The notes beneath the pieces were generated by a model. The model saw only the letters and a program-made list of their open reading frames with translations, did no database searches and was not told where the DNA came from. Of a DNA stretch of 20,280 bases, positions 1 through 20,280 are shown in pieces. Numbering within the stretch: position 1 is the first letter of the stretch; each line of letters opens with the position of its first letter. The stretch is from a virus. The translations under genes and the position numbers were made by a program. The stretch is taken from the IMG/VR virus record IMGVR_UViG_3300032053_017072, positions 1 to 20,280 of that record. One strand, 5' to 3'.

Positions 1-227
1 TCTTGGGGTAGCTCGTCATCCAGGAGAAGCGCCGCCTCGTACAGCACCGGCATCGTCACCCACTTCATGGGCGTGAAGGTGAAGCCAACATCGTCTGCTG
101 GCCTACCTATGAACGCAGCATCTTTTACCATGATGCGCCCGGGTTTTCGCCCCAGTTCTTCGGCCGCGATGAACATCGTTCCGCCCGCGGTGGCGTACAG
201 CATGTACTTGGGAGTTTTCTTGGACAT
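1..227 (-). CDS. Unknown protein, N-terminal part (cut by left edge)
   Basis: The reading frame is open from an ATG at 227 down to the window edge, giving about 75 residues beginning MSKKTPKYMLYATAGG. The ATG overlaps the TGA stop of the DNA polymerase gene in an ATGA arrangement, so it is very likely translated by coupling to the polymerase and belongs to the same leftward operon. The visible part mixes short hydrophobic and basic stretches, with no signal peptide, cysteine cluster or nucleotide-binding motif. I do not recognise the family. A role in replication is suggested only by position. The ORF is probably real, because the overlap geometry matches other gene pairs in this window and no stop interrupts the frame. 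Confidence 0.7.
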   Translation of the reverse strand, partial: MSKKTPKYMLYATAGGTMFIAAEELGRKPGRIMVKDAAFIGRPADDVGFTFTPMKWVTMPVLYEAALLLDDELPQ

Positions 228-3200
228 CAGCAGGTTGTCTCCTTCTTAGGCCGCCGCAGCGGCTTCAGCTCTCCGTAGGACGGTCCGATTTCAACATCGT
301 ACAGAAAGTCCACGGGGAGCCAGGGGAATCGTTCCTTGACGCGCTGGGTGATCCAGCGGTCCAGGAAAGGGAACAGGAGCGGCACGCTCTGGTCTGGTAT
401 CTCGAAGGTCAGAGAGTCGTGCACGGTGATGAGCAGCTCACCGTCGATTTCATGGATGTGCTCATCGATTTCGCATAGCTGTGAAAGCACCAAGTCCGAG
501 CTGGTCGACTGAATCAGGAAGTTGGTGCCTTCACGAATGGCCTCCGCCATCATCTCGCTGGTGACGTGCGCCAACCTGAAGCGCCGGCACCGACCAAACA
601 ACGTCTTGAGGATACGCCGGTTGTGGACCTGTAGGGCTACGTCGTCAACGTAGGCCCTCATCTTAGGAAGCGACGCATAGATGCTCTGCTGCAACTCACG
701 AGCGTATTCCAATGTTGAGCTGATGAGCTGCCGGATCTTGTACTCACTGCCGCCATACAGCGTGCTGAAGAAAACCTTCTTGCAGTCGGTGCGCCACTTC
801 TTGATGGTGGGGTCAGTCTCCTTCCCGGCTTGGATTTGGTCGTAGGTGAGCTTGTCCTTGTACACCATCGAGGTCACCCAGGAGTGGGTATCGATGCCCT
901 TGTTGAGAGAATCGATCATGGCTTCGTCGTGGGCGTATGCGGTATATACCCGGATCTCGGCACCCTTGATGTCGACGTTCACGATGAGGTTGCCCGGCTT
1001 CGAGGGAACGAACAGCTTCTTGATGTTGTAGCCTGGATGGACGACGATTTCCTTTCCGTCTGCGCCCTCTTTGGCACGCCGCGCCGCGTACAACGGGATG
1101 TTCTGCATATTGGGCTTCGAGCTGCTGAGCCGCCCCGTGGCAGTTCCGTTCAGGTTGAACCCGCAGTGGACCTTCCCATCGGCCTTGGAGAAACGCCGGA
1201 TTGGTTTCAGGTAAGTGTTCAGGGTCTTGTGGGACTCCCGGAATTCCAGCAGCTGCAGACAGAACTGATGCCGAGGGTCGTCCTCGGCGTACTTCTCCAT
1301 GTACTGGTCGAGGATATCCTTGCCAGTTCCGCCCGTGTCTCCTGAGTCGAGGCTGGCGAAGTTCAACTTGCCCATGTAGGCGCTGATTTGCTTTGGGGAG
1401 TTGAGGTTGAGCGACGGGTCGAACTTGGCGTGGACGTAGGACTCGGCAGAAGCTAACCGCTTCTCCACTTCGAAGACAGTTTTCTCCAGATGTTCTTGGT
1501 CCACGGTGAACCCCCGGTACTCCATCGCCGAGAGCGTTCGACTGCCGGGCAGATACAGACTCTTCATCACGCCGACGCCTTCTTCATACAGTTCGGTGTT
1601 GTGCAGGCGGACGGTCTGCGATTTCAGAATAAGCCGAGTAACGTCCGCGTCGGCCGCGGCGTACTTTCGCAGAGTCCCCAGCGGGATATGCTGGAAGCCT
1701 TCGTCTGCAGTACCTACGACCTTCTTGGCGCTTTCCTTCTTCGGCGACACGATGTTCATCTGCTTACGCAGAGTTTTGATGGCCACACGGGAGTTATCCA
1801 ATTGCTTCAGCTGCTCTTCCGTACGCTCCTTGGCTTTGACCTTCTGGATGGTGTCCTTGGTCGACACGGCTTGGGCAAGCTTGTCCCAATCGTCGTCCGG
1901 GCGCCCAGTGTTGATGCCGTTCACGCTGACGTAGACGATGTAGTCCGAGAGTTCGTCATCAGTCAGATACAGCGGAGGGTACTCGTCGCCATTCGATGTG
2001 TCTTCAACCTCGACCGACCGCTCCTCATCTTCCTCTTTTCCTCGTAAGAAGTTCTGCAGCGTTTCGTCGTATCCTTGGTACTCCGCGGCGTAGAGAGGCA
2101 CCAGTTGCTTCAAACGGTAGTGCCCTTTCTTGTCCTCGTCGATGTAGTGCTCACCCAGCATCGTATCCCAAGCCACGTTGTTGACCCGGAACGTACTGAT
2201 CTGCCGCCGCATAAAGTCTACGTCAAATTTCCCTGCGGCGATCTCTTGGAGCTTAGCCGCTTCGATCGCTCGGCGTGTCTCGATGAATTTTTGGTCGAAC
2301 TTCCAGTTGTGCAGCACCTTTGGTTTGGGGCAGCGAAGAAGCCGTTCTACATGCGCCCATGCTTCCATGGGGTCGTACGGGCATTCAGGATGATTCAGCA
2401 GGATGCTTGCTGCTTTCCCGTCATCCCACGCAACCGACAGCATGAGCGTTTTGGGGTCTGGGTGCGAGTACGGTCGCAGCGTGTTCGTTTCGGTGTCGAG
2501 AGAGATGAACCAGTCTTCTGGACCCGTCCCGCGTTCGGGGTTGTAGTAACCGATGATGTGGTCTACGAGATTCTTCACTTCATCAATGGTCTGGGGAAAG
2601 ACGTAATCCTTTGTCACTTCGTCGAGGCTCTTGGGCTTCACTTCTGGGTCGCAGGCCAACTGAGTCGCGCGCAGGAGCGCCGACATCACGACGTTGGCGG
2701 TGCCCAACTTGGCCAGTACGTGCTTCATGGACAAGAGGGGTACCACTATCAGCTTGCGGTAGCCCTGCGGGCTCGAATCGGCAACGGTTACTGTCATCTC
2801 TCGCCCGATGACGTCAGCAATTCGCCGCATCTTGACGCCAACGGCTTTTGCTGCCACAGGACCCAACGGTACGACGATAGGATTACGCCTTGGGATAGCC
2901 CCGCGGATTCGGTTGAGTTCCCGCTGCAGGTTCACCTGGCAGTGGGACAGGTGACCTGCTTTGGGCTCGTAGGCTCCGGCCTTGACGGCGTAGGTGTAGT
3001 ACACCTTCACGTCTTTGTACTTCCCGCCCTGGTATTGCCGGATGGTTTTCAGCATGTCCTTGAACAAGCGCCCCTCACGGCCGAAGAATGGCTGTCGATT
3101 GCCAACCGAGAAGCCGGAAGGGGCAGAACCGACTACGATAAGGTGCGCCGGATCATCGCCCGCGCCTGAATCTAGGCATGGGTCGTAAAACGCCGGGCAC

Positions 3201-3247
3201 CCTTCGCACAAACTGCTCTTCTTGAACGGTGCGCCTTGGTCCGCCAT
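227..3247 (-). CDS. Family A DNA polymerase with UDG-like N-terminal domain and 3'-5' exonuclease
   Basis: Replicative phage DNA polymerase, 1006 aa. Residues ~10-190 resemble a family 4 uracil-DNA glycosylase: CxxC at 14/17, a VVGSAPSG loop at 38-45 and a later Cys at 103. However, the catalytic GEAPG loop and HPS motif are not preserved, so glycosylase activity is doubtful. The proofreading exonuclease has D251/E253 (DTE), D318 and Y529/D533. The stretch between Exo II and Exo III is ~210 residues, far longer than in Klenow, and contains an acidic segment near 404-421. Polymerase motifs are TGRLSSS at 704-710 with PNMQNIP, motif A D759/E764, motif B R819, K823, F827 and Y831, and motif C HDS at 943-945, where most family A enzymes have HDE. 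The ATG at 3247 lies 3 nt after the primase stop. The next gene overlaps its stop, so the three genes form one operon. Function is secure; the role of the N-terminal domain is not. Confidence 0.95.
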   Translation of the reverse strand: MADQGAPFKKSSLCEGCPAFYDPCLDSGAGDDPAHLIVVGSAPSGFSVGNRQPFFGREGRLFKDMLKTIRQYQGGKYKDVKVYYTYAVKAGAYEPKAGHLSHCQVNLQRELNRIRGAIPRRNPIVVPLGPVAAKAVGVKMRRIADVIGREMTVTVADSSPQGYRKLIVVPLLSMKHVLAKLGTANVVMSALLRATQLACDPEVKPKSLDEVTKDYVFPQTIDEVKNLVDHIIGYYNPERGTGPEDWFISLDTETNTLRPYSHPDPKTLMLSVAWDDGKAASILLNHPECPYDPMEAWAHVERLLRCPKPKVLHNWKFDQKFIETRRAIEAAKLQEIAAGKFDVDFMRRQISTFRVNNVAWDTMLGEHYIDEDKKGHYRLKQLVPLYAAEYQGYDETLQNFLRGKEEDEERSVEVEDTSNGDEYPPLYLTDDELSDYIVYVSVNGINTGRPDDDWDKLAQAVSTKDTIQKVKAKERTEEQLKQLDNSRVAIKTLRKQMNIVSPKKESAKKVVGTADEGFQHIPLGTLRKYAAADADVTRLILKSQTVRLHNTELYEEGVGVMKSLYLPGSRTLSAMEYRGFTVDQEHLEKTVFEVEKRLASAESYVHAKFDPSLNLNSPKQISAYMGKLNFASLDSGDTGGTGKDILDQYMEKYAEDDPRHQFCLQLLEFRESHKTLNTYLKPIRRFSKADGKVHCGFNLNGTATGRLSSSKPNMQNIPLYAARRAKEGADGKEIVVHPGYNIKKLFVPSKPGNLIVNVDIKGAEIRVYTAYAHDEAMIDSLNKGIDTHSWVTSMVYKDKLTYDQIQAGKETDPTIKKWRTDCKKVFFSTLYGGSEYKIRQLISSTLEYARELQQSIYASLPKMRAYVDDVALQVHNRRILKTLFGRCRRFRLAHVTSEMMAEAIREGTNFLIQSTSSDLVLSQLCEIDEHIHEIDGELLITVHDSLTFEIPDQSVPLLFPFLDRWITQRVKERFPWLPVDFLYDVEIGPSYGELKPLRRPKKETTC

Positions 3248-8660: not shown

Positions 8661-8689
8661 TTGCAAACGTCTACTGATAGTGTGACTAT
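8661..8689 (+). promoter_or_regulatory. Candidate promoter for the sigma factor gene
   Basis: TTGCAA (8661-8666) and GACTAT (8684-8689) are separated by 17 bp, with TG one base before the second hexamer, as in an extended -10 element. The expected start would be near 8696, upstream of the AGGAG at 8711-8715 and the GTG at 8724. The -10 match is only 3/6, so this is tentative. It diverges from the strong leftward promoter at 8552-8580. Confidence 0.35.
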
Positions 8690-8723
8690 TACCTACAGAA
8701 CCCAACCTGTAGGAGTGGGAACC

Positions 8724-9590
8724 GTGCAAGTTGTTTCACGCAGTAACGAACGGCGCGGAACGCGCGACAGCAATTTCTCTCGGTACTACAACGACGTCGG
8801 CCAGACCAAAATCCTCGATGCCGCCTCTGAGCAAGAGCTCTTCAAGCGCTACCAGGAAAAGCACGACATCGCCGCACGTGACCGCATAATCGAGAGCTGC
8901 CTTAGGTTCGTGGTGAAGCTGGCGACCAAGTACACCGACGATATGGATAGGTTGAAAGATCTCATATCTGCCGGAAACGAAGGTCTGCTAGCTGCCATCG
9001 ACCGATTTGACCCAGAGCGCAACACGCGCTTTCTATCGTATGCGACGCACTGGGTGCTGCTCTACATTAGAAACGAACTCAACAACGCCAGCCTCGTTTC
9101 GATGCCCCTCTGGTACCAGAAGACAGTCCGAAAGCTAAACAAGGTGAAAACGCGGGTGATGACCGAAACTGGTCAGAGAGCGAGTGACCGGCAATTGTGC
9201 CGCGCAGTTGGTGTCACAAAGTCCCAGCTCGGGCATCTTCGGGTAGATCGTTTTCGTTACTTCACAGTGGAGGACATGAATCTGTCGAACGACGGAATCG
9301 AAAGCAGAACGATGAGTTCCGAAACCCGGGAAATGCTTCAATCCATGCTCTATCCGGATTCGGCTTCCGTCAAAGATAGCAGCGTTCTCAAACTGTCCCC
9401 CAAAGAAAGCTTCGTTGTTGGTGCCTACTACGGATTTGTTGGCGACCCCTGGTCTCTCGCGCAGATTGCCAACTACCTGGGCGTAAGCTCCGAGCGCGTG
9501 CGACAGATAAAAGAAGCCGCGCTGGAGCAAATGCGAGAGGTTCTGGAAAAGAAAAAAGGCGTGTACAAACCGGAAGACGCCTGCCCCTAG
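8724..9590 (+). CDS. Phage-encoded sigma70-family RNA polymerase sigma factor
   Basis: A 288-aa sigma factor. Region 2 spans residues ~35-120, including DLISAGNEGLLAAIDRF (79-95) and FLSYATHWVLLYIRNEL (103-119), the counterpart of the -10-reading FSTYATWWIRQAI helix. A short region 3-like part follows. Region 4 (~224-275) ends in a clear helix-turn-helix, SLAQIANYLGVSSERVRQI (244-262), for -35 contact. In region 2.4 one of the two -10 tryptophans is His (H109) and the usual Gln is Leu (L113), so promoter specificity is probably altered. GTG 8724 is chosen because AGGAG lies 8 nt upstream. A longer TTG-initiated frame from 8661 would overlap the probable promoter. It is the only plus-strand gene within a 15-kb minus-strand region, so it is separately controlled. 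It may direct host core enzyme or the phage's own polymerase. Confidence 0.92.
   Translation: MQVVSRSNERRGTRDSNFSRYYNDVGQTKILDAASEQELFKRYQEKHDIAARDRIIESCLRFVVKLATKYTDDMDRLKDLISAGNEGLLAAIDRFDPERNTRFLSYATHWVLLYIRNELNNASLVSMPLWYQKTVRKLNKVKTRVMTETGQRASDRQLCRAVGVTKSQLGHLRVDRFRYFTVEDMNLSNDGIESRTMSSETREMLQSMLYPDSASVKDSSVLKLSPKESFVVGAYYGFVGDPWSLAQIANYLGVSSERVRQIKEAALEQMREVLEKKKGVYKPEDACP
9557..9582 (-). terminator. Terminator of the ParB operon, embedded in the sigma gene
   Basis: AGGCGT (9557-9562) and ACGCCT (9577-9582) form a 6-bp stem with a 14-nt loop. Read leftwards the stem is followed by TTTTTCTTTTCC, a good U-rich tail. It would end transcripts from the ParB side after they run about 30 nt into the 3' end of the convergent sigma gene. 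The stem is short, so efficiency is uncertain. Confidence 0.5.
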
Positions 9591-10793: not shown

Positions 10794-11168
10794 TCACTTC
10801 TGCTCGAAGGGTTCGCTACCGCACTTCGGGCAGAGCGAGACTTCGCCGTGCTTTTCGAGCGCGCTACCGCACTTCGGGCACGTGGCCGGTTTGCTCTCGG
10901 CCGCGGCTTTCTCTCCTGCTTCACTCGTCTCGTCGACGCCATACTTTTCCATGGGCTTCTCCTTGGTTTTCAGTTTCACGAGGATAGCCTTTCGGGCGTC
11001 TTTGCACAAGTTCGCCACGTCGGCGAGCTTCACCCGGATTCGGGTGTGGGCGATTTTGACGCCCTTTGCGGCATGGACCTCATCGGCCCGAATTTCGTCG
11101 ATGAGGCCGTAGATCTTGTTCAGCGCTTCGATGCCCAACGAGGGCAACGTGTCCAGGTTTGGATTCAT
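10794..11168 (-). CDS. Small helical protein with C-terminal zinc ribbon
   Basis: A 124-aa protein. Residues ~10-70 look like a basic helical hairpin (ALNKIYGLIDEIRADEV, then a segment ending KDARKAILVKLK), resembling small phage or histone-like DNA-binding proteins. The C-terminus holds two CPKCG knuckles (C97/C100 and C113/C116), a standard zinc ribbon. The function is unknown; nucleic-acid binding is inferred. ATG 11168 is chosen because AGGAGG lies 8 nt upstream and it follows the Cas4-like stop as TGAGATG, implying coupled translation. A longer in-frame extension upstream to 11285 overlaps that nuclease gene and is rejected. Confidence 0.78.
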   Translation of the reverse strand: MNPNLDTLPSLGIEALNKIYGLIDEIRADEVHAAKGVKIAHTRIRVKLADVANLCKDARKAILVKLKTKEKPMEKYGVDETSEAGEKAAAESKPATCPKCGSALEKHGEVSLCPKCGSEPFEQK

Positions 11169-11169
11169 C

Positions 11170-12093
11170 TCAGGCTCCTCCTTTTCTGCACTCGTCGAAG
11201 TACCCACACCACTTTTTGCTGCACCACCACCCAGGCGACCCGGGCGGAAAGCTTCCCCGGGCAATGGATTCGGCAACGCGCTCAATCACGAACTGCGCCC
11301 AGCGCCAGTCGTGCGCCCCACGGGGTGCACTGATCATCTTGACTGCCGGCGTCTTCGTTTTCGTTAGGCAGTTGAAAGCGACCTGGGTGACCTTGGTGAC
11401 GAGCGAGTAGATCGTCAGCTGCATGTCGTTCTGGGCGTCGTCGGCGGACTTGGCGCGAGAAACGACCTTGTGGTCTACGATGACCGGGCCAACCAACGTC
11501 GACTTCGGCGCATGGTCCTCGGCGAGCAGGTCGATGTAGCCCAGCATCGGAACGCGCATCTCGCCAATGGTCACCCAGAAGCGCCGCTCGATGAACGGTC
11601 CGATTGGGTCGACCACCGCTTTCAGAACCGGCAGATGGTCGCGCTGGTACAATGACAACAGTGCCCGGCCACGACTGAGCACTTGGTCTTCGTTTGCGTC
11701 ATCTTCGTTCTCGGCGTTCCAGTCGATGTCGGAACGCACGTTCTTCCACGCATCGGCGTGTGCATCCAGCATCATGTCTAACGGAACGTTGTCCGTTTTG
11801 AGTGCCTCTCGGTGTCCGACTTCTAAGCCACGGTGAATGGCTTTGCCCTCGGCCATGGCGATCGAAGGCGGCATGATGATGCCCTTGACCACGCGAAATT
11901 CAAACTGCCTTGGACACTTCAGATACTGCGATATCTGGCTGGCGGAGAGGTAGCCCTTCGGGAGTTCCAGGGTGCACTCCTCGATGGAGGACTCCTCCAG
12001 CATCTTCTGATACTCCTTGTCGGCATCGGTGTTTTCGACGCCTTCAAGGAACACAACACGGTTCTCAGTCGTCGTCGCTGTCGGGTCGCTCAC
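11170..12093 (-). CDS. PD-(D/E)XK nuclease, Cas4/RecB-like (second copy)
   Basis: A 307-aa nuclease of the same superfamily as the gene at 6654-7454, but clearly divergent. It shows LSASQISQYLKCPRQFEFR near 49-67 with C60, the EGKAIHRG His motif (H87), GYIDLL (D188), IVDHK (D207, K209) and QLTIY at 225-229. The C-terminal cluster WWCSKKWCGYFDEC supplies C291, C296 and C302. These are the catalytic acid/lysine set and four likely Fe-S cysteines. It probably processes DNA ends during recombination. The GTG at 12093 is preceded by GAGGAG and gives a 29-nt overlap with the upstream acidic gene. A longer frame to 12168 would overlap more and begins without an SD sequence. Superfamily assignment is firm; substrate and polarity are unknown. 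Confidence 0.85.
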   Translation of the reverse strand: MSDPTATTTENRVVFLEGVENTDADKEYQKMLEESSIEECTLELPKGYLSASQISQYLKCPRQFEFRVVKGIIMPPSIAMAEGKAIHRGLEVGHREALKTDNVPLDMMLDAHADAWKNVRSDIDWNAENEDDANEDQVLSRGRALLSLYQRDHLPVLKAVVDPIGPFIERRFWVTIGEMRVPMLGYIDLLAEDHAPKSTLVGPVIVDHKVVSRAKSADDAQNDMQLTIYSLVTKVTQVAFNCLTKTKTPAVKMISAPRGAHDWRWAQFVIERVAESIARGSFPPGSPGWWCSKKWCGYFDECRKGGA

Positions 12094-13719: not shown

Positions 13720-15597
13720 TTAGAGCGGTTCAGGCTGAGTCACTATGCGCCGAATCTTGTCCTGGTAAACGCACCCAGATTTGAACGGTTGAATACCCTG
13801 AACAAAGCAATCTCTGTCTTTCTCCTGGCGGCAGAGCAAACAATCAATCCGATCAGTGAGTGTGTTGGCAACATCGATTTTCTGTTCCAGGGCTTTCACC
13901 AGAACTTGTCCGACGCTATTATCGCATACTAATCGATAAACGAATACTTTTTCGTCTTGTCCTATTCTGTAGTTGCGATCCCGAGACTGGAGATAAAAGT
14001 CCAAGCTGTAGGATAACCCGAAATAAATCATGTAACGCGCCGCAGTCAGCGTCAGCGCCACGCCAGTTGCAATCTGCCCCAAGTAGACCCGAATGTCCGG
14101 ATTGGTGTTGAAGCGAGTGGCAATATCCTGCGCCTGGGAGCTGTTTGAGCCATCAACCCGAACAAAGGGAGTATTACGAGCCTCAAGCAACTCTTGCACC
14201 ATATCAAGCTCGGCCTTGAAGTAACCCCAGATAATGACCTTGTTCTTAGGCTCAGCCAAAATCTCATCCAGCAGTTCTGCAAGAGCATCCAGCTTCGGGT
14301 TTTCTTTTAGCCTGGTCACGGCCTGCGCCGGGGGCGTTGTGACTTTCATGCACCGCTTGGTGTAGGGACGAATCTTTTCCTCGACGCAGCTGTGCACGTA
14401 CATGCACCCGTCGCAGATCTCGGGCAGCGGCTCGATGAACATTCCGCTCAGGACCTGCAAGAGCTTCTGCAGGACAGCCGCAGCGTGCGGCGCTTCGTAG
14501 AGTTTGCCCGCTTCTAAGCTGGCGCAGGCTTCGATGACCAGCTGATTGTACAAGTCGCGTTGCGTGCCAACGACTTGGAATGGATAATCAATGATGGTCC
14601 GTTCGGGCAGTTCCAGGCACTCTTCCTTGGTCTTCCGAATGCAGGTGCGCTGGACTTTGTCGTTCAGATGATCCAAGTTTTTGTAGCCTGTCGTTATCTT
14701 TTTGTTATATTTGGATTGGACAGTGTAGAGACATCTGAACACCCAAAAGCTCTTCGCCGGAATATATGGCGCCAAGAAGTGCAGCTGCCCGTACAGGTGA
14801 AGCGGATTACCCAGCGATGGCGTCCCGCTCATGATGATTCGCCGAGCTGCTCGGCTGGCCAGATAGCACGCAGCCTTGGTCCGCTCGCTGCTCTTCTCCC
14901 GCAAGTTGTGGCTCTCGTCTGCGATGATGGTGGTGTAGGGGAACGCCTTGATGATATCTTCAGCGTAGCGCTTGGCCGTATCGTAGCCCACGATGACCAC
15001 GTCGTAGTCACCGGCTTCGTCGATTTTAGCCTTCTTCTTGGCTTTCCCCGTGCCCACAAGCGGCAGGACTTTGAGCTCTCCTGGTCCAGCATGGATTCCA
15101 ATTTCGCGTAGCCACATCTTGATACCCACAACGGGAGTAAGGATGAGCGTCTTCTCCCGCTCGTGGCGTATCAGGTCTACGGCGATTTTCGTTTTTCCAA
15201 GTCCCATGTCATACAGGATGCCGCAGCGCAGGTTCCGAAGCGCATACTTCAGCGCCTCGACCTGATGCTCATAGGGCTTGGTCACGAATTCGAACCCCTC
15301 CCGAAGCGGAAAGGGGTAGGGTTTCTGCTTCATCTCTTCGGTGATCCGTTCGCATTCGGCGATGTGCGCCAAGGCTTCGGGGCTGAACTGCAGGCTGCTC
15401 CCGAAGACGATTTTCAGGTCCCGAACGACGTTTGCCGTGTAGGGGTAGAACGCCGGGAAGAGCCAGAGGCTCCGTTCCTCCATGAACGTTGCCCCAAAGA
15501 CGCGTTTGACGTCCTGGTGCGGAAGCCCAGGTGGGGCTACAAAAACAGGTGTTCCGTGCAGCCTGGTGAAGCCGCACTGCACTATTTGCTCGGTCAT
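13720..15597 (-). CDS. SNF2-family (SF2) DNA helicase/translocase
   Basis: A 625-aa superfamily 2 ATPase. Motif I is DMGLGKT (130-136), motif Ia is ILTPVVG, motif II is DESH (227-230), motif III is MSGTP (256-260) and motif VI is QSRDRNYRIGQ (537-547), the SNF2 signature. Translocation on dsDNA, fork remodelling or branch migration are the likely roles. The next gene in the operon encodes an endonuclease VII-like resolvase. Two extra cysteine groups stand out: C395/C398/C404/C416 between the RecA lobes, and C586/C589/C597/C609 at the C-terminus; both could bind metal. The ATG at 15597 has GGAGG 6 nt upstream; a TTG two codons earlier is less likely. It is the first gene of the leftward operon that ends at ParB. 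Confidence 0.92.
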   Translation of the reverse strand: MTEQIVQCGFTRLHGTPVFVAPPGLPHQDVKRVFGATFMEERSLWLFPAFYPYTANVVRDLKIVFGSSLQFSPEALAHIAECERITEEMKQKPYPFPLREGFEFVTKPYEHQVEALKYALRNLRCGILYDMGLGKTKIAVDLIRHEREKTLILTPVVGIKMWLREIGIHAGPGELKVLPLVGTGKAKKKAKIDEAGDYDVVIVGYDTAKRYAEDIIKAFPYTTIIADESHNLREKSSERTKAACYLASRAARRIIMSGTPSLGNPLHLYGQLHFLAPYIPAKSFWVFRCLYTVQSKYNKKITTGYKNLDHLNDKVQRTCIRKTKEECLELPERTIIDYPFQVVGTQRDLYNQLVIEACASLEAGKLYEAPHAAAVLQKLLQVLSGMFIEPLPEICDGCMYVHSCVEEKIRPYTKRCMKVTTPPAQAVTRLKENPKLDALAELLDEILAEPKNKVIIWGYFKAELDMVQELLEARNTPFVRVDGSNSSQAQDIATRFNTNPDIRVYLGQIATGVALTLTAARYMIYFGLSYSLDFYLQSRDRNYRIGQDEKVFVYRLVCDNSVGQVLVKALEQKIDVANTLTDRIDCLLCRQEKDRDCFVQGIQPFKSGCVYQDKIRRIVTQPEPL

Positions 15598-15609
15598 GGT
15601 CAACCTCCA

Positions 15610-15700: not shown

Positions 15701-17476
15701 ATGTCCCAATTCCCCGATGATTCCTTTGATCTGATTGGGCGAAGCATCCAGCACCCCAACCCGCTCTTCGACTTCCTGACGACTTTTGCGCCCAGGAAGC
15801 TGAAGACGCTCTTTCAGTACTGCGAATACCTCTACTACAATTGCCCGCAGATATTCGCAGCGCTGAACAAGTTCGCGGTTTACCCGGTCACAGACCTCAA
15901 GCTCGAAACGGACAACCCGACGCTGCGTGTAAAGTACAAGCGTCTGCTGGAAGACACCCTGCACCTAAAGAACATCCTCATCAAGACCAGCATCGACCGC
16001 TACGTGTACGGCAATTCCTTCATCTCCATCTACTTTCCGTTCCGGCGCTTCCTGACTTGTCCGAAGTGCGGTGAGAGCCACAACATCAAGTTCCTCGACT
16101 ACAAATTCCGCGCCAACCACAAGCGGGCCGAATTCAAGTTCCACTGCGGCCAGTGCAACAAGAGCGTCGTCGCGCTCGTGGAAGATAAAAAGATCAAGAT
16201 GCCCGCTGGCATCAACATCATTCGGTGGGACCCCAAGCACATCGAGATTGAGCACAACCAGCTCACTAACGAGAGCGTGTACTACCACTCGGTTCTTCCG
16301 GAGATTCAGGATCGGATCCGCAAGGGCGACAGGCACATCCTGAACACCACCCCACTGTCGTTCATCTACACCGTCGCCCAGAAGAAGCTCTTCAAATTCC
16401 TTCCAGGGCACCTGTACCACATGAAGGCCGACGCACCGGCCGGCATAGACCCGCGCTGGGGTCTGCCGCCCATCACGGCGACCATCAAGCAGTTCTACTA
16501 CGTCGCGGTTCTTCGCAAGGCGAACGAGGCAATCGCCCTGGAGCACACCATCCCCTTCCGCGTGTTGCACCCCGAGATGCCTACCGCTTCGTCGGACCCG
16601 ACCATCACGATTTCCATCGCAAACTGGATCGCTGAAACCAAGATGAACCTCAAGGCGTGGCGCAAAGACCCGCTGCACCTGATGTTCAGCCCGATTCCCG
16701 TGGGCGTCACTCAGATCGGTGGCCAGGGCCGAGCGCTTATGGTCACCGGCGAGATCACCGAGGCCGAGAACAACATCATCGCCTCGCTAGGCATCCCTCG
16801 CGAGTTCATCTACGGTGGCCTGTCGGCAACTGGTGGTGGCGTAACCCTGCGCATGCTCGAAAACCAGCTCCTGAACGACACCACGCATCTCATCGACGAA
16901 GCACAGTGGATTTCTGACCAGTGTGGGAAGTTCATGGGATGGTCGTCTATCAATCTGGACCTGGAACCCTTCAAGCTGGTCGACGACGTGCAGCAGAAGA
17001 TGATGCTGCTCCAGGCCAACCAGGTGGCCGGCGGCACTCTCTTCTCCAACACATCGTTGGCTAGCATGTTCGGTCGTGACCTCAAGCAGGAGCGAGACCA
17101 GCGTATGCAAGAACAGATCGATGAGCAGGGCTTCCAAACCGAGCTGCAGAGAAAGCTACAAGAAGGGCAGCAGAACCTTGCCGATCAGGCGCGCAGCGCC
17201 ACGGCGGCCGGACAACCTCAGCAGTACGACCAGCAACAGGTCATGGGGCAAGCCAGCCAGATTGCCCAGCAGCTTCTGTCAATGGACCCCGGAAGTAAGC
17301 GCAGCCAGCTACACGAACTGCAGATGGAAGACGCAGTCATGTACGCCTGCGTTGTCCAGGCGCTTGAGCAGATACAGACCAGCCAAGAGGCCCAGGCCAA
17401 GGCTATGGCGATGCAGCAGGGTGGTGCACCTGCGCCGGGCGGCAACGGTGGCGGTGGCGCCCCGAGAGGAATGTAA
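15701..17476 (+). CDS. Phage portal protein with internal zinc ribbon
   Basis: A 591-aa portal protein, the dodecameric ring at the capsid vertex through which DNA is packaged. Portal-like features are the N-terminal helical part, SIDRYVYGNSFISIYFP near 97-113, GIDPRWGLPPITATIKQFYY, ITEAENNIIASLGIPREFIYGG and a Gln-rich helical C-terminus ending in a Gly-rich tail. Unusually, a zinc ribbon with CPKC (C120, C123) and CGQC (C149, C152) is inserted in the N-terminal third. The ATG has AGGAG 5 nt upstream. The stop overlaps the next start as TAATG. A terminase is expected nearby but is not in the window. The call rests on overall pattern and length, since portals share little sequence identity. 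Confidence 0.85.
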   Translation: MSQFPDDSFDLIGRSIQHPNPLFDFLTTFAPRKLKTLFQYCEYLYYNCPQIFAALNKFAVYPVTDLKLETDNPTLRVKYKRLLEDTLHLKNILIKTSIDRYVYGNSFISIYFPFRRFLTCPKCGESHNIKFLDYKFRANHKRAEFKFHCGQCNKSVVALVEDKKIKMPAGINIIRWDPKHIEIEHNQLTNESVYYHSVLPEIQDRIRKGDRHILNTTPLSFIYTVAQKKLFKFLPGHLYHMKADAPAGIDPRWGLPPITATIKQFYYVAVLRKANEAIALEHTIPFRVLHPEMPTASSDPTITISIANWIAETKMNLKAWRKDPLHLMFSPIPVGVTQIGGQGRALMVTGEITEAENNIIASLGIPREFIYGGLSATGGGVTLRMLENQLLNDTTHLIDEAQWISDQCGKFMGWSSINLDLEPFKLVDDVQQKMMLLQANQVAGGTLFSNTSLASMFGRDLKQERDQRMQEQIDEQGFQTELQRKLQEGQQNLADQARSATAAGQPQQYDQQQVMGQASQIAQQLLSMDPGSKRSQLHELQMEDAVMYACVVQALEQIQTSQEAQAKAMAMQQGGAPAPGGNGGGGAPRGM

Positions 17477-17910
17477 TGCCCGACGAAAAGAACTACGCCG
17501 AAGACTTCGCCAATGCCATCCAAGGGCAGAAGCCCACGGCGCGGCGAGGACTGCCGCCACTTCATCCGCGCGAGGGTGACCGCTGGGTCAACCTGGCGAG
17601 CGAAAGCAAAAGTGTCGGACCAGAAGATACCGAGCCCGACAGCCCAAATCTGCTGGAACTGCCCAAAAACAAGAGGATGGTCGTGCGGTATCGGCAATTC
17701 AGCCTGACCGACCCGACTCAGGTCGCCGAACTCGAAGAAATCATGAACAACTGCGTTTCCAAACGCGGTTGGATTCTGGCTCGCGAAGAATGGGACATCG
17801 ACGCAAAGGGCAACAAGGTCGTTACCCTCAAATACATGGAAGTCCTCGACTTGGGAAAAAAGAAAGAAGAAGCCGGCGCAGGGTCACCCCCCACGCCGGC
17901 TTCTCCCTAG
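17476..17910 (+). CDS. Small protein of unknown function, coupled to portal
   Basis: A 144-aa protein. Its start codon shares one base with the portal stop (TAATG), so it is probably translated by ribosomes finishing the portal. The first ~65 residues are polar and Pro-rich and look disordered. Residues ~67-128 look like a compact alpha/beta domain (MVVRYRQFSL, then AELEEIMNNCVSKRGWIL, then a strand pair ending VTLKYMEVL). The tail is Lys/Glu- then Pro-rich. I do not recognise it. Position suggests a virion or head-assembly accessory. Its 3' end contains the terminator hairpin of the opposing gene pair. Confidence 0.75.
   Translation: MPDEKNYAEDFANAIQGQKPTARRGLPPLHPREGDRWVNLASESKSVGPEDTEPDSPNLLELPKNKRMVVRYRQFSLTDPTQVAELEEIMNNCVSKRGWILAREEWDIDAKGNKVVTLKYMEVLDLGKKKEEAGAGSPPTPASP
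17869..17903 (-). terminator. Terminator for the convergent leftward gene pair, embedded in the plus-strand gene
   Basis: A perfect 10-bp stem GAAGCCGGCG / CGCCGGCTTC closes a 15-nt loop. On the minus strand it is followed by TTCTTTCTTTTTTCCC, a clear U-rich tail; on the plus strand the stem is followed by TCCCTAG with no U-tract. It therefore acts chiefly on leftward transcripts from 18623, although it lies inside the coding sequence ending at 17910. Confidence 0.75.
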
Positions 17911-17913
17911 CCG

Positions 17914-18024
17914 TCAACCATCTTCGTCTTCTTCAGCTTCTCCGTCGTCGTCCTCTTCCAGCTCTGGATCGTGTTCTTCCTCGTCGTCGTCAACGACGGG
18001 GTCAAACTTGGTGATCCAGGTCAT
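17914..18024 (-). CDS. 36-residue highly acidic peptide
   Basis: The ATG at 18024 overlaps the TGA of the preceding gene (ATGA), implying coupled translation. The stop falls 3 nt short of the end of the convergent plus-strand gene. After MTWITKFDPVV, nearly all residues are Asp, Glu, Gly or Pro; 20 of 36 are acidic. Such extreme charge suggests DNA mimicry, a chaperone-like tail or binding to a basic partner, but none of these is shown. A longer in-frame extension upstream to 18246 lies over another gene and is rejected. Reality as a gene rests on the overlap and the tight fit. Confidence 0.6.
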   Translation of the reverse strand: MTWITKFDPVVDDDEEEHDPELEEDDDGEAEEDEDG

Positions 18025-18623
18025 TTCGAAGCCCCCTTCTCCTTCTTGGGGGTGAGAAGCGTAGACACTTGCGCTTTCTCGGCTGCGAAGCGATAGTCGA
18101 GCTCCTGCTGCTGCGCTTGGAGCTCCTTCACTTCGACAACCAGAGCCTCGAGCTTGCGCTGCGCCGCCCCTATCTGGGACTTCAAGCGGAGTTGCTCGCG
18201 CTCCAAATTCGTAACGACCTGGTGGCTGTCGGGGTTGACAACCCACACGACCTCCTGCCCCCGCCGGTCGCGCGTGCGCACGCGCAACTGGAATCCTGTG
18301 GCGTCAAAGTCCAGCAGGACCCCCCCGTGCCAGGGCATCTTTTCGACCTTGCCCTTCACCCAACGGGGCTTGTTCCGGAAGAAGACCTTGAAGTCCTGGT
18401 GAAGCGCCGCGCACTCCGTACGCCGCTGCTCCGCCCACGCCATCAGGTCTGCCCTTCGAGCTGCCTGTTCATCGGTCAGCGCGGCACCCTTTGGGTCTGC
18501 CAGCAGGATCGATACACGATCCTGTGCGTCCCGCCGCCTGAGCTCATCGAAAGGCTGCTCGAAGGGACGTACAGCGAAGACGGCCTCCAACAACGTATCG
18601 GCTACCTGCTCCAAGTTTTCCAT
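18021..18623 (-). CDS. Coiled-coil protein of unknown function
   Basis: A 200-aa protein. The N-terminal ~75 residues are charged helices. Residues ~76-135 look like a small beta domain (FKVFFRNKPRWVKGKVEK, GGVLLDFDATGFQLRVRT, EVVWVVNPD). Residues ~137-187 form a long coiled coil (LEREQLRLKSQIGAAQRKLE and onwards), with a Lys-rich end. AGGAGG stands 4 nt before the ATG, one of the strongest SD sequences here. It is the first gene of a two-gene leftward unit, divergent from the RNA polymerase beta gene. I do not recognise the family. A role tied to the polymerase or to virion assembly is conceivable only from position. Confidence 0.78.
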   Translation of the reverse strand: MENLEQVADTLLEAVFAVRPFEQPFDELRRRDAQDRVSILLADPKGAALTDEQAARRADLMAWAEQRRTECAALHQDFKVFFRNKPRWVKGKVEKMPWHGGVLLDFDATGFQLRVRTRDRRGQEVVWVVNPDSHQVVTNLEREQLRLKSQIGAAQRKLEALVVEVKELQAQQQELDYRFAAEKAQVSTLLTPKKEKGASK

Positions 18624-18661: not shown

Positions 18662-18690
18662 TTGATAAACGGCTTCCTAGTTCTTATACC
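18662..18690 (+). promoter_or_regulatory. Candidate promoter for the RNA polymerase beta gene
   Basis: TTGATA (18662-18667, 5/6) and TATACC (18685-18690, 4/6) are spaced by 17 bp, giving a start near 18697 and a 5' leader of about 17 nt. An alternative -10, TATACT (18701-18706), has no matching -35 and would place the start within a base or two of the ATG at 18714, giving a leaderless mRNA. Confidence 0.4.
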
Positions 18691-18691
18691 A
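18683..18691 (-). promoter_or_regulatory. Candidate extended -10 for the leftward coiled-coil gene
   Basis: On the minus strand TGGTATAAG reads as an extended -10 (TG, one base, then TATAAG, 5/6). No convincing -35 stands 17 bp upstream. It overlaps the plus-strand -10 at 18685-18690, so firing in one direction may exclude the other. The predicted leader to the ATG at 18623 is about 50 nt. Confidence 0.35.
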
Positions 18692-18713
18692 GATTTGTCC
18701 TATACTTTCGGGC

Positions 18714-20280
18714 ATGGCGACCACGAAGGCAGAGCTCCCCCAAAACATCTTTTCAAGCGCTTCTCCTTGGCGGGAAAACATCCGGGACAAGGCCGTGGAG
18801 AGCATCAAAACGGCCTTTCCGTTCACCGGAAAGAAGTACACCGTCCAGGTTGAAAACGTCCGGGTGAAGCCCGCCGAGTACGGTCCCACTGATTTCAAGA
18901 AAGCGATGATGACGGCCAGGACGCTTTCGGAACCCATCAAGGGAACGTTGGTCCTGAAGGACGCCGGGGGAAAGACTCTGCAGAAGGTCCCCGACTTCAC
19001 CCTGGCTCAGCTACCCTACTATACACCGCATCACACGTTCCTCATCGAGGGCACGCCGCATGCGGTGAACAGCCAGCTTCGAATGAAGCCGGGCGTCTAT
19101 ACCCGCAAGAAGCGCAACGAGGAACTCGAGGCCCAGTTCAATACCATCGGGAACCCTTTCCGGATGACGATGGACCCGGAGAGCGGGCACTTTCACGTGG
19201 AGTATCAAACCTCGCGGATTCCGCTGTACCCCATCCTGAACAAGCTTGGGGTCTCCGACAAGGAGATCTCCGCGCACTGGAATCCACAACTGGTCGAGGC
19301 GAATCGTAACAAGTTTTCGAAAATAGACCAGCACTTCGACAAGCTGTATTCGAAAATCGTCCGCCCCAGCGAGGAGTCGACCGACAAGGTCGAAGCCGTG
19401 AATAAGGCTTTCGCGCGCACACAGCTAGATCCGGATGTTACAAAAGAACTCCTGGGCAAGTCGTTTACGCACGTGACGCCGGGTGCGTTGCTCGCGGCTT
19501 CGCAGAAGCTCCTGCGCGCCTACAACGACAAGCAAGACTTCGATGAGCGGGACAACCTGGCCTACAAGCGCATCATGGGGGTCGACGACTTCATCGCCGA
19601 GCGCATCAAGCTCGACGCCCGCGACCTGAAGCGCAAGGTCATGCTGAAGCTGGACTACGGCCAACCCGACCTGGAGAAGGCTATTCCAACTTCGCCGTTT
19701 ACCCGTGGCATCCGGAAGTTCCTGTCGACGTCGGCGCTGTCGGGGAGTCCGACCCAGATCAATCCGTTGGAGCTGATGGACGCTGCGACCAAGGTCACCT
19801 CGATGGGCGAAGGCGGAATATCGAGCGACCGTGCCGTCCCGACTGAAGCCCGCCACCTGCACGGCTCGCACCTGGGTGTCTTGGATCCCGTCCGAACCCC
19901 TGAGTCCTACCGCGCTGGCATCGAGCTGCGCACGGCGCTGTTCACCTCGCGAGACAAGCAGGGCAACATCTTCACGGCCCTGACCGACCGCGCCGGGAAG
20001 ACCCGCTACGTCCCCGTGAGCGAAGCTTCCAAAAAAGCCATCGCCTTCCCTGGTCAGGACATGCACGGGCGCATCAAGGTCGACGTCCTGCAGGCCGGCA
20101 AGCTGCGCTCGATTCCAGCGTCGCAGGTCGACTACATGGTGCCGAACGTCCATGGCATGTATACCGTCTCAACCAACCTGATTCCATTCCTGAACAGCAT
20201 CGACGGAAACCGAGCCGAGATGGGTTCGAAGATGGTAACGCAGGCGTTGCCCCTCAAGGACCCGGAGCCGCCGTTGGTTC
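18714..20280 (+). CDS. DNA-directed RNA polymerase beta subunit (RpoB-like), N-terminal part, cut by right edge
   Basis: The frame is open from the ATG at 18714 to the window end (522 residues so far). Matches to bacterial RpoB, in order, are: HHTFLIEGTPHAVNSQLRMKP (106-126) for the FIINGxERVVVSQLxRSPG segment; RIPLYPILNKLG (168-179); DNLAYKRI (280-287); the rifampicin-cluster counterpart ending SMGEGGI (363-369); TEARHLHGSHLGVLDPVRTPE (377-397); and VDYMVPN followed by NLIPFLNSIDGNRAEMGSKM. The final part equals about residue 690 of the E. coli protein, so roughly 165 residues of inserts are missing and this is a compact beta. The catalytic lysines lie beyond the edge. There is no clear SD. 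A beta' gene is expected downstream. Together with the sigma gene it points to a phage-owned multisubunit polymerase. Confidence 0.93.
   Translation, partial: MATTKAELPQNIFSSASPWRENIRDKAVESIKTAFPFTGKKYTVQVENVRVKPAEYGPTDFKKAMMTARTLSEPIKGTLVLKDAGGKTLQKVPDFTLAQLPYYTPHHTFLIEGTPHAVNSQLRMKPGVYTRKKRNEELEAQFNTIGNPFRMTMDPESGHFHVEYQTSRIPLYPILNKLGVSDKEISAHWNPQLVEANRNKFSKIDQHFDKLYSKIVRPSEESTDKVEAVNKAFARTQLDPDVTKELLGKSFTHVTPGALLAASQKLLRAYNDKQDFDERDNLAYKRIMGVDDFIAERIKLDARDLKRKVMLKLDYGQPDLEKAIPTSPFTRGIRKFLSTSALSGSPTQINPLELMDAATKVTSMGEGGISSDRAVPTEARHLHGSHLGVLDPVRTPESYRAGIELRTALFTSRDKQGNIFTALTDRAGKTRYVPVSEASKKAIAFPGQDMHGRIKVDVLQAGKLRSIPASQVDYMVPNVHGMYTVSTNLIPFLNSIDGNRAEMGSKMVTQALPLKDPEPPLV

Follow-up and report, generated by a model that had tools for sequence, protein, structure and literature searches.

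The stretch of viral DNA analysed here (IMG/VR record IMGVR_UViG_3300032053_017072, positions 1 to 20,280, the full extent of the record; hereafter the window, or the contig) ends inside a gene for a cell-type RNA polymerase (RNAP) beta subunit. Almost everywhere, the two large subunits of RNAP are made as separate chains, which cells assemble on alpha.

An open beta gene on a phage contig

The open reading frame (ORF) at 18714-20279 (+) consists of 522 open codons and then meets the contig end mid-gene. It forms the 5' part of an RNAP gene (beta residues 1-522), equivalent to E. coli beta ~18-700, or the protrusion, lobe and fork/Rif region. Pfam detected Rpb2 domain 2 (E 6e-5) and domain 3 (E 6e-8), both above the gathering cut-off, and phmmer against beta chains in the PDB covered residues 50-522 with a best E of 1e-28. 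The AlphaFold2 model (pLDDT 93.8, pTM 0.90) was matched by Foldseek most closely to Synechocystis RNAP beta (E 1e-33, TM 0.81). The initial annotation of this ORF as RpoB is borne out far beyond chance by these results, as is its proposal that beta runs continuously to E. coli residue ~690: the frame is uninterrupted up to codon 522, which aligns to E. coli R700. The same annotation had described the protein as compact, with ~165 residues missing. The gaps relative to E. coli are real, comprising mainly residues 224-340 (the SI1 insert, 117 aa) and small gaps elsewhere. Given that many bacteria also lack SI1, and that the compact betas of cyanobacteria and Thermus get to the equivalent of R700 at residue 558-579, this compactness is mostly ordinary and not phage-specific.

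The genes upstream were compared with those of related phage loci, of which the closest (L019 and L031) are ~60% identical, and with those of the cultured Salmonella phage Arash. A sigma-70 family factor with regions 2 and 4 lies at 8661-9590 (+) and is of the type of Arash Gp196. Further on lie an SNF2-family helicase at 13720-15603 (-), in kin a conserved neighbour of the portal and RNAP genes, and the portal gene at 15701-17476 (+). The latter, already noted on the same stretch as beta by the initial annotation, is supported by conserved synteny, with portal ORFs in related phages 30-67% identical to it (65-67% to L019/L031 and 31% to the annotated Arash portal, Gp204). Downstream of it, gene comparison with kin identified a small conserved ORF at 17476-17910 (+), and an ORF divergent from beta occupies 18021-18623 (-) with weak conservation (31% in L019). 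The order SNF2, portal, small ORF and RNAP, with sigma nearby, is that of the Arash type. Two further genes of the contig were noted. At 227-3247 (-) a family A DNA polymerase combines, in a single chain, a 3'-5' exonuclease domain and, at its N-terminus, a domain of the uracil-DNA glycosylase superfamily. A small protein at 10794-11285 (-), kept in kin, has a histone H1-like (Hc1) stretch and a C-terminal zinc-ribbon-like CxxC pair.

A derivation of the beta gene from host DNA, or a chimeric contig, is barely conceivable. Gene order and identity match L019/L031 gene by gene over 7.5-20.3 kb, from sigma through beta, and the cellular RpoB proteins retrieved are just 24-29% identical to the fused RNAP protein of the closest kin. 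The phage origin originally proposed therefore stands: the contig is genuinely from a phage, and 18714-20279 is the start of an open, cell-type RNAP beta gene.

Architecture of the gene in related phages

Relatives of beta were sought by using profile scans of IMG/VR, since a single-sequence scan of viral contigs gave no match. Successive scans returned 27 relatives, then 530 (80 kept) and then 409 (80 kept). Gene architecture near the contig was counted in the 80 nearest loci plus L019: 69 were fused through the catalytic barrel of beta', 12 ran off their contig and none stopped earlier. In every one of the 69 nearest relatives with a visible gene end, beta thus continues in frame into the N-terminal half of beta' (beta'N) past DxDGD, a motif present in all 69, and the remainder of beta' (beta'C) has its own ORF in every case where it can be seen (53/53). 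The refuting condition set in the initial annotation, an ORF ending soon after the edge and no beta', thus turns out in these kin to favour a complete RNAP. Given that all relatives with a visible end are fused, the contig gene is most likely the 5' end of a beta-beta'N fusion, which is predicted from kin, the contig itself stopping at codon 522. The initial reading as a stand-alone beta with a separate beta' gene is thus not supported. That arrangement, with an intact beta' as in bacteria, Yersinia phage GN1 and Rhizobium TM30 phages, does occur among other phages with multisubunit RNAPs and is compatible with the contig taken alone, but it was seen in 0/69 of the nearest kin, and the tree places the contig within the fused clade (100% support), leaving it very improbable. 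In Yersinia phage GN1 (L291 3401-9514) the separate genes are in reversed order, with beta' ahead of beta. The contig ORF is very probably the start of the single RNAP gene, a beta-beta'N fusion, of an Arash-related tailed phage.

Wider phage records were classified using segment models. Beta is whole in most kin, and 48 records encode the enzyme as a single chain, 55 as two chains and 7 as three, with a few other cuts; 35 further records are fused, but their beta'C lies outside the stretch or went unrecognised. A complete single-chain beta-beta' RNAP of ~2,050 aa, as in those 48 records of the wider clade, is highly improbable here, given that beta'C stands in a separate ORF in all 53 neighbourhood kin in which it is in view. 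Cuts elsewhere were observed within beta near model residue 635 (L168 2226-8595) and near model residue 918 (L134 5415-12259 and L202 1506-6786).

Among cultured phages, a fused form of the full-length enzyme was found only in Arash and the Vibrio phages D69, D148 and D181. In Arash and D69 the first gene (1,525-1,527 aa) contains Rpb2_6 together with Rpb1_1/Rpb1_2 and so spans beta and beta' as far as the catalytic motif; the second (606-609 aa) contains Rpb1_5. These phages (Arash Gp206/Gp216/Gp10, OQ632216) resemble the contig in the order SNF2, portal, small ORF and RNAP and in having sigma factors, and their beta is 32-37% identical to that of the contig over nearly full length. Their RNAP genes were annotated by the authors just as 'beta', 'beta'' or hypothetical, with the fusion unmentioned; the Arash 'beta' is thus to be corrected to beta plus half of beta'. 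Arash is ~65% divergent from the contig in beta and has the motif AADYDGD.

The junction was inspected in an alignment of kin without the Arash row, which was a wrong ORF. The sequence aligned with the end of E. coli beta (..RSLGINI) leads, essentially linker-free, straight into sequence aligned with E. coli beta' from about residue 17 onwards; the zinc-binding domain of beta' is absent. The C-terminal half of beta and beta'N of L031, modelled as one chain, gave a pLDDT of 89 and a pTM of 0.78, and the beta half matched bacterial beta. The predicted product of ~1,460-1,530 aa would unite the catalytic lysines of beta with the DxDGD of beta' in one, essentially linker-free chain. In Helicobacter and Wolbachia the C-terminal end of beta is likewise joined to the N-terminal end of beta', but beta' is kept whole and alpha is present, whereas in the contig's kin beta'C is split off.

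Six loci (L122, L138, L139, L143, L181 and L203) were left out as separate RPB1-like chains (L143 was tested; the others were judged by the same match pattern). BLAST matches labelled as Staphylococcus, Listeria or Enterococcus phage (25-27% identity) were rejected as apparently bacterial RNAP from records with wrong labels. PHROG 24349 was also set aside as a phage family, its length appearing to fit a stand-alone bacterial beta.

Insertions were found in several fused genes. L023 (9830-15379) and L024 (9830-15379) carry an intein-like insert of ~300 aa that interrupts the active-site motif of beta itself (GDK|SGRQGNKG), and the fused ORFs of L052, L053, L063 and L078 contain inserts of 300-550 aa. 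In Vibrio phage D181 (L003 21516-22440) an annotated homing-endonuclease gene interrupts beta after VPFFNS in an intron-like manner, and L029 (11516-12444) has an intron-like gap of about the same length at the same site.

Phylogeny and comparison with known polymerases

The main tree was built from beta plus beta'N (1,420 columns, 69 phages, 21 bacteria) in IQ-TREE using LG+F+G4 and UFBoot. Phages and bacteria each formed their own group (100% each), and the contig was sister to L031+L019 at 100%. Single-chain lineages (L162/L188/L195 and L113/L130; ~2,050 aa) were basal, the two-chain group received 100% support and the three-chain group was nested in the Arash group. The initial suggestion of a deep-branching viral RNAP holds as far as separation from bacterial RNAPs is concerned (100% UFBoot); its depth is less secure, because the phage branches are long and the rate may have accelerated in this clade.

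In a second tree, to which separate-chain phages were added, these adjoined the fused clade with weak support and long branches. The two trees disagree on the fused state of the deepest phage node, and both give a derived beta' fission: by parsimony, a derived split between beta'N and beta'C required 2 vs 5 changes in the main tree and 1 vs 4 in the second. The NCLDV outgroup locus L285 yielded the wrong ORF and was left out of conclusions. The favoured reading of these gene trees is that the two- and three-chain forms arose by gene fission from a fused chain; beta and beta' would have been fused in the phage lineage and beta' then cut after the catalytic barrel.

The contig's clade was compared with other phage RNAP systems. 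With the RNAPs of the phiKZ/AR9 jumbo phages it shares a multisubunit enzyme, the lack of alpha, the existence of a virion form and an associated SNF2-type helicase. In those phages beta and beta' are each split and no sigma is present (PMC7824862); the contig beta, in contrast, is continuous to R700, and in kin it is mostly whole and fused to beta'N. Because beta is whole and a sigma factor is present, the clade is not considered phiKZ-like. The RNAP of crAss phages shows no detectable similarity to cellular beta models (PMC7481178), whereas the contig beta, compared with the single-chain RNAPs of crAss and YonO, passes the Pfam Rpb2 cut-offs.

The mReC lineage (multi-subunit RNAP-encoding Caudovirales; PMC7481178) resembles the contig's clade in being Caudoviricetes with a cell-type RNAP apart from Bacteria. 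Its motif NADxDGD occurs in many subclade members, but the Asn is absent in L019/L031. All capsids detected in mReC were Gp23/PF07068, and a major capsid protein (MCP) was detected in only 8/97 contigs (PMC7481178). A Gp23-type MCP (PF07068) was found in 0/68 phage records with multisubunit RNAP (T4 control E 1e-122); the contig itself holds no capsid gene, and phrog_2522 capsids occurred in 14/30 records. Membership by capsid was therefore rejected and the clade was not filed as mReC; given that so few mReC contigs had a detected MCP, the two may overlap. Rhizobium TM30 (Kleczkowskaviridae), Yersinia GN1 and Vibrio 1.031.O have a homologous RNAP that branches next to the fused clade, but their beta and beta' are unfused and they carry a Gp23-type capsid protein (weak in Vibrio 1.031.O). 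The text of the mReC paper mentions fusion for crAssphage only (PMC7481178), and no description of a beta-beta'N fusion was found in a search of freely accessible, published papers.

Candidate promoters, sigma factors and possible virion packaging

Two candidate promoter elements precede the RNAP gene. CTATACTT (18700-18707, +) contains a TATACT separated from the beta ATG by 7 nt that include no Shine-Dalgarno sequence, and GGTATAAG (18683-18690, -) faces the opposite way ~25-30 nt before beta and contains the sole TATAAG of the contig. The CTATACTT-type element is nearly alike in L019 (TATACT to ATG 6 nt) and L031 (7 nt), the spacing is 6-9 nt in 13 loci, and a leaderless RNAP mRNA is possible. 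In several other kin CTATACTT lies 14-27 nt upstream of the ATG, some with a GGAGG-like ribosome site between. The divergent pair is conserved (contig 18683-18707, L019 9943-9962, L031 9954-9973). No 8-mer was more over-represented in Arash kin than GGTATAAG (45 seen vs 3.9 expected), which was enriched in further groups too, but not in bacterial controls. Host sigma70 promoters showed no enrichment (5 found vs 6.5 expected).

Polymerase, alpha and sigma genes were surveyed in 25 large records. Each contained one PF00562 RNAP ORF (25/25), although a phiKZ-type second enzyme might escape the Pfam model. Alpha (PF01000) was not detected in the 25 records (control 13/14), a Gp10-type sigma was present in all 25, and sigma region 2 was detected in 16/25. 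A second subunit, beta'C (~600 aa, with the trigger-loop region), and phage sigma factors would complement the predicted fusion, with no phage alpha detectable.

Published mass spectrometry of purified Arash virions assigned 3,516 spectra to the fusion Gp206, the most of any protein (128 unique peptides, 100% coverage), along with 1,210 to Gp216 (beta'C) and 467 to Gp10 (sigma) (PMC10585845). The authors proposed either early transcription or carry-over for this virion RNAP, and the main text of their paper makes no mention of Gp196 (PMC10585845). By analogy with Arash, packaging of the RNAP in the virion of the contig's phage is somewhat favoured. Gp10 sigma would then direct early transcription of the injected DNA, a Gp196-type sigma, as on the contig, would serve later genes, and the SNF2 helicase may help recycling.

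Kin tabulated in the alignment keep beta K1065, K1073, D814, R678 and R1106 (E. coli numbering). The normally invariant Asn of NADFDGD is replaced in L019/L031 (AGDFDGD, TGDFDGD), the motif is mostly NADYDGD or NLDYDGD in the wider subclade, and beta E813 and H1237 are changed in the subclade, so that polymerase activity is not guaranteed. A degenerate, structural RNAP-like virion protein would suit this loss of Asn and the very high abundance in Arash virions; since DxDGD and the two active-site lysines are kept, as is most of the core, and sigma factors are co-conserved, it is very unlikely. In the drug pocket almost all phage rows carry other residues in place of E. coli R143, Q513, H526 and R540, and mostly T in place of S531; the phage RNAP is therefore predicted to be rifampicin-insensitive.

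The broader proposal, for which the chances are judged to be even, is that a large group of tailed phages, with hundreds of IMG/VR contigs, goes back to an ancestor with a one-polypeptide catalytic RNAP, no alpha and its own sigma, that the enzyme was re-cut at different points, and that members inject a sigma-loaded, packaged holoenzyme. If true, these phages would have host-independent transcription from the first minute and a bacterial-type promoter system. This large viral lineage, with a linker-free fusion, no detectable alpha, sigma kept and several alternative later cuts, is a natural record of the joins and cuts that RNAP tolerates. Because Arash is cultured and has the protein in its virion, minimal RNAP assembly, injected sigma-holoenzymes and an ancient versus a recent origin of phage RNAP become testable, and the contig's enzyme could reveal how a polymerase of cellular type may come to be fused, cut anew and packaged.
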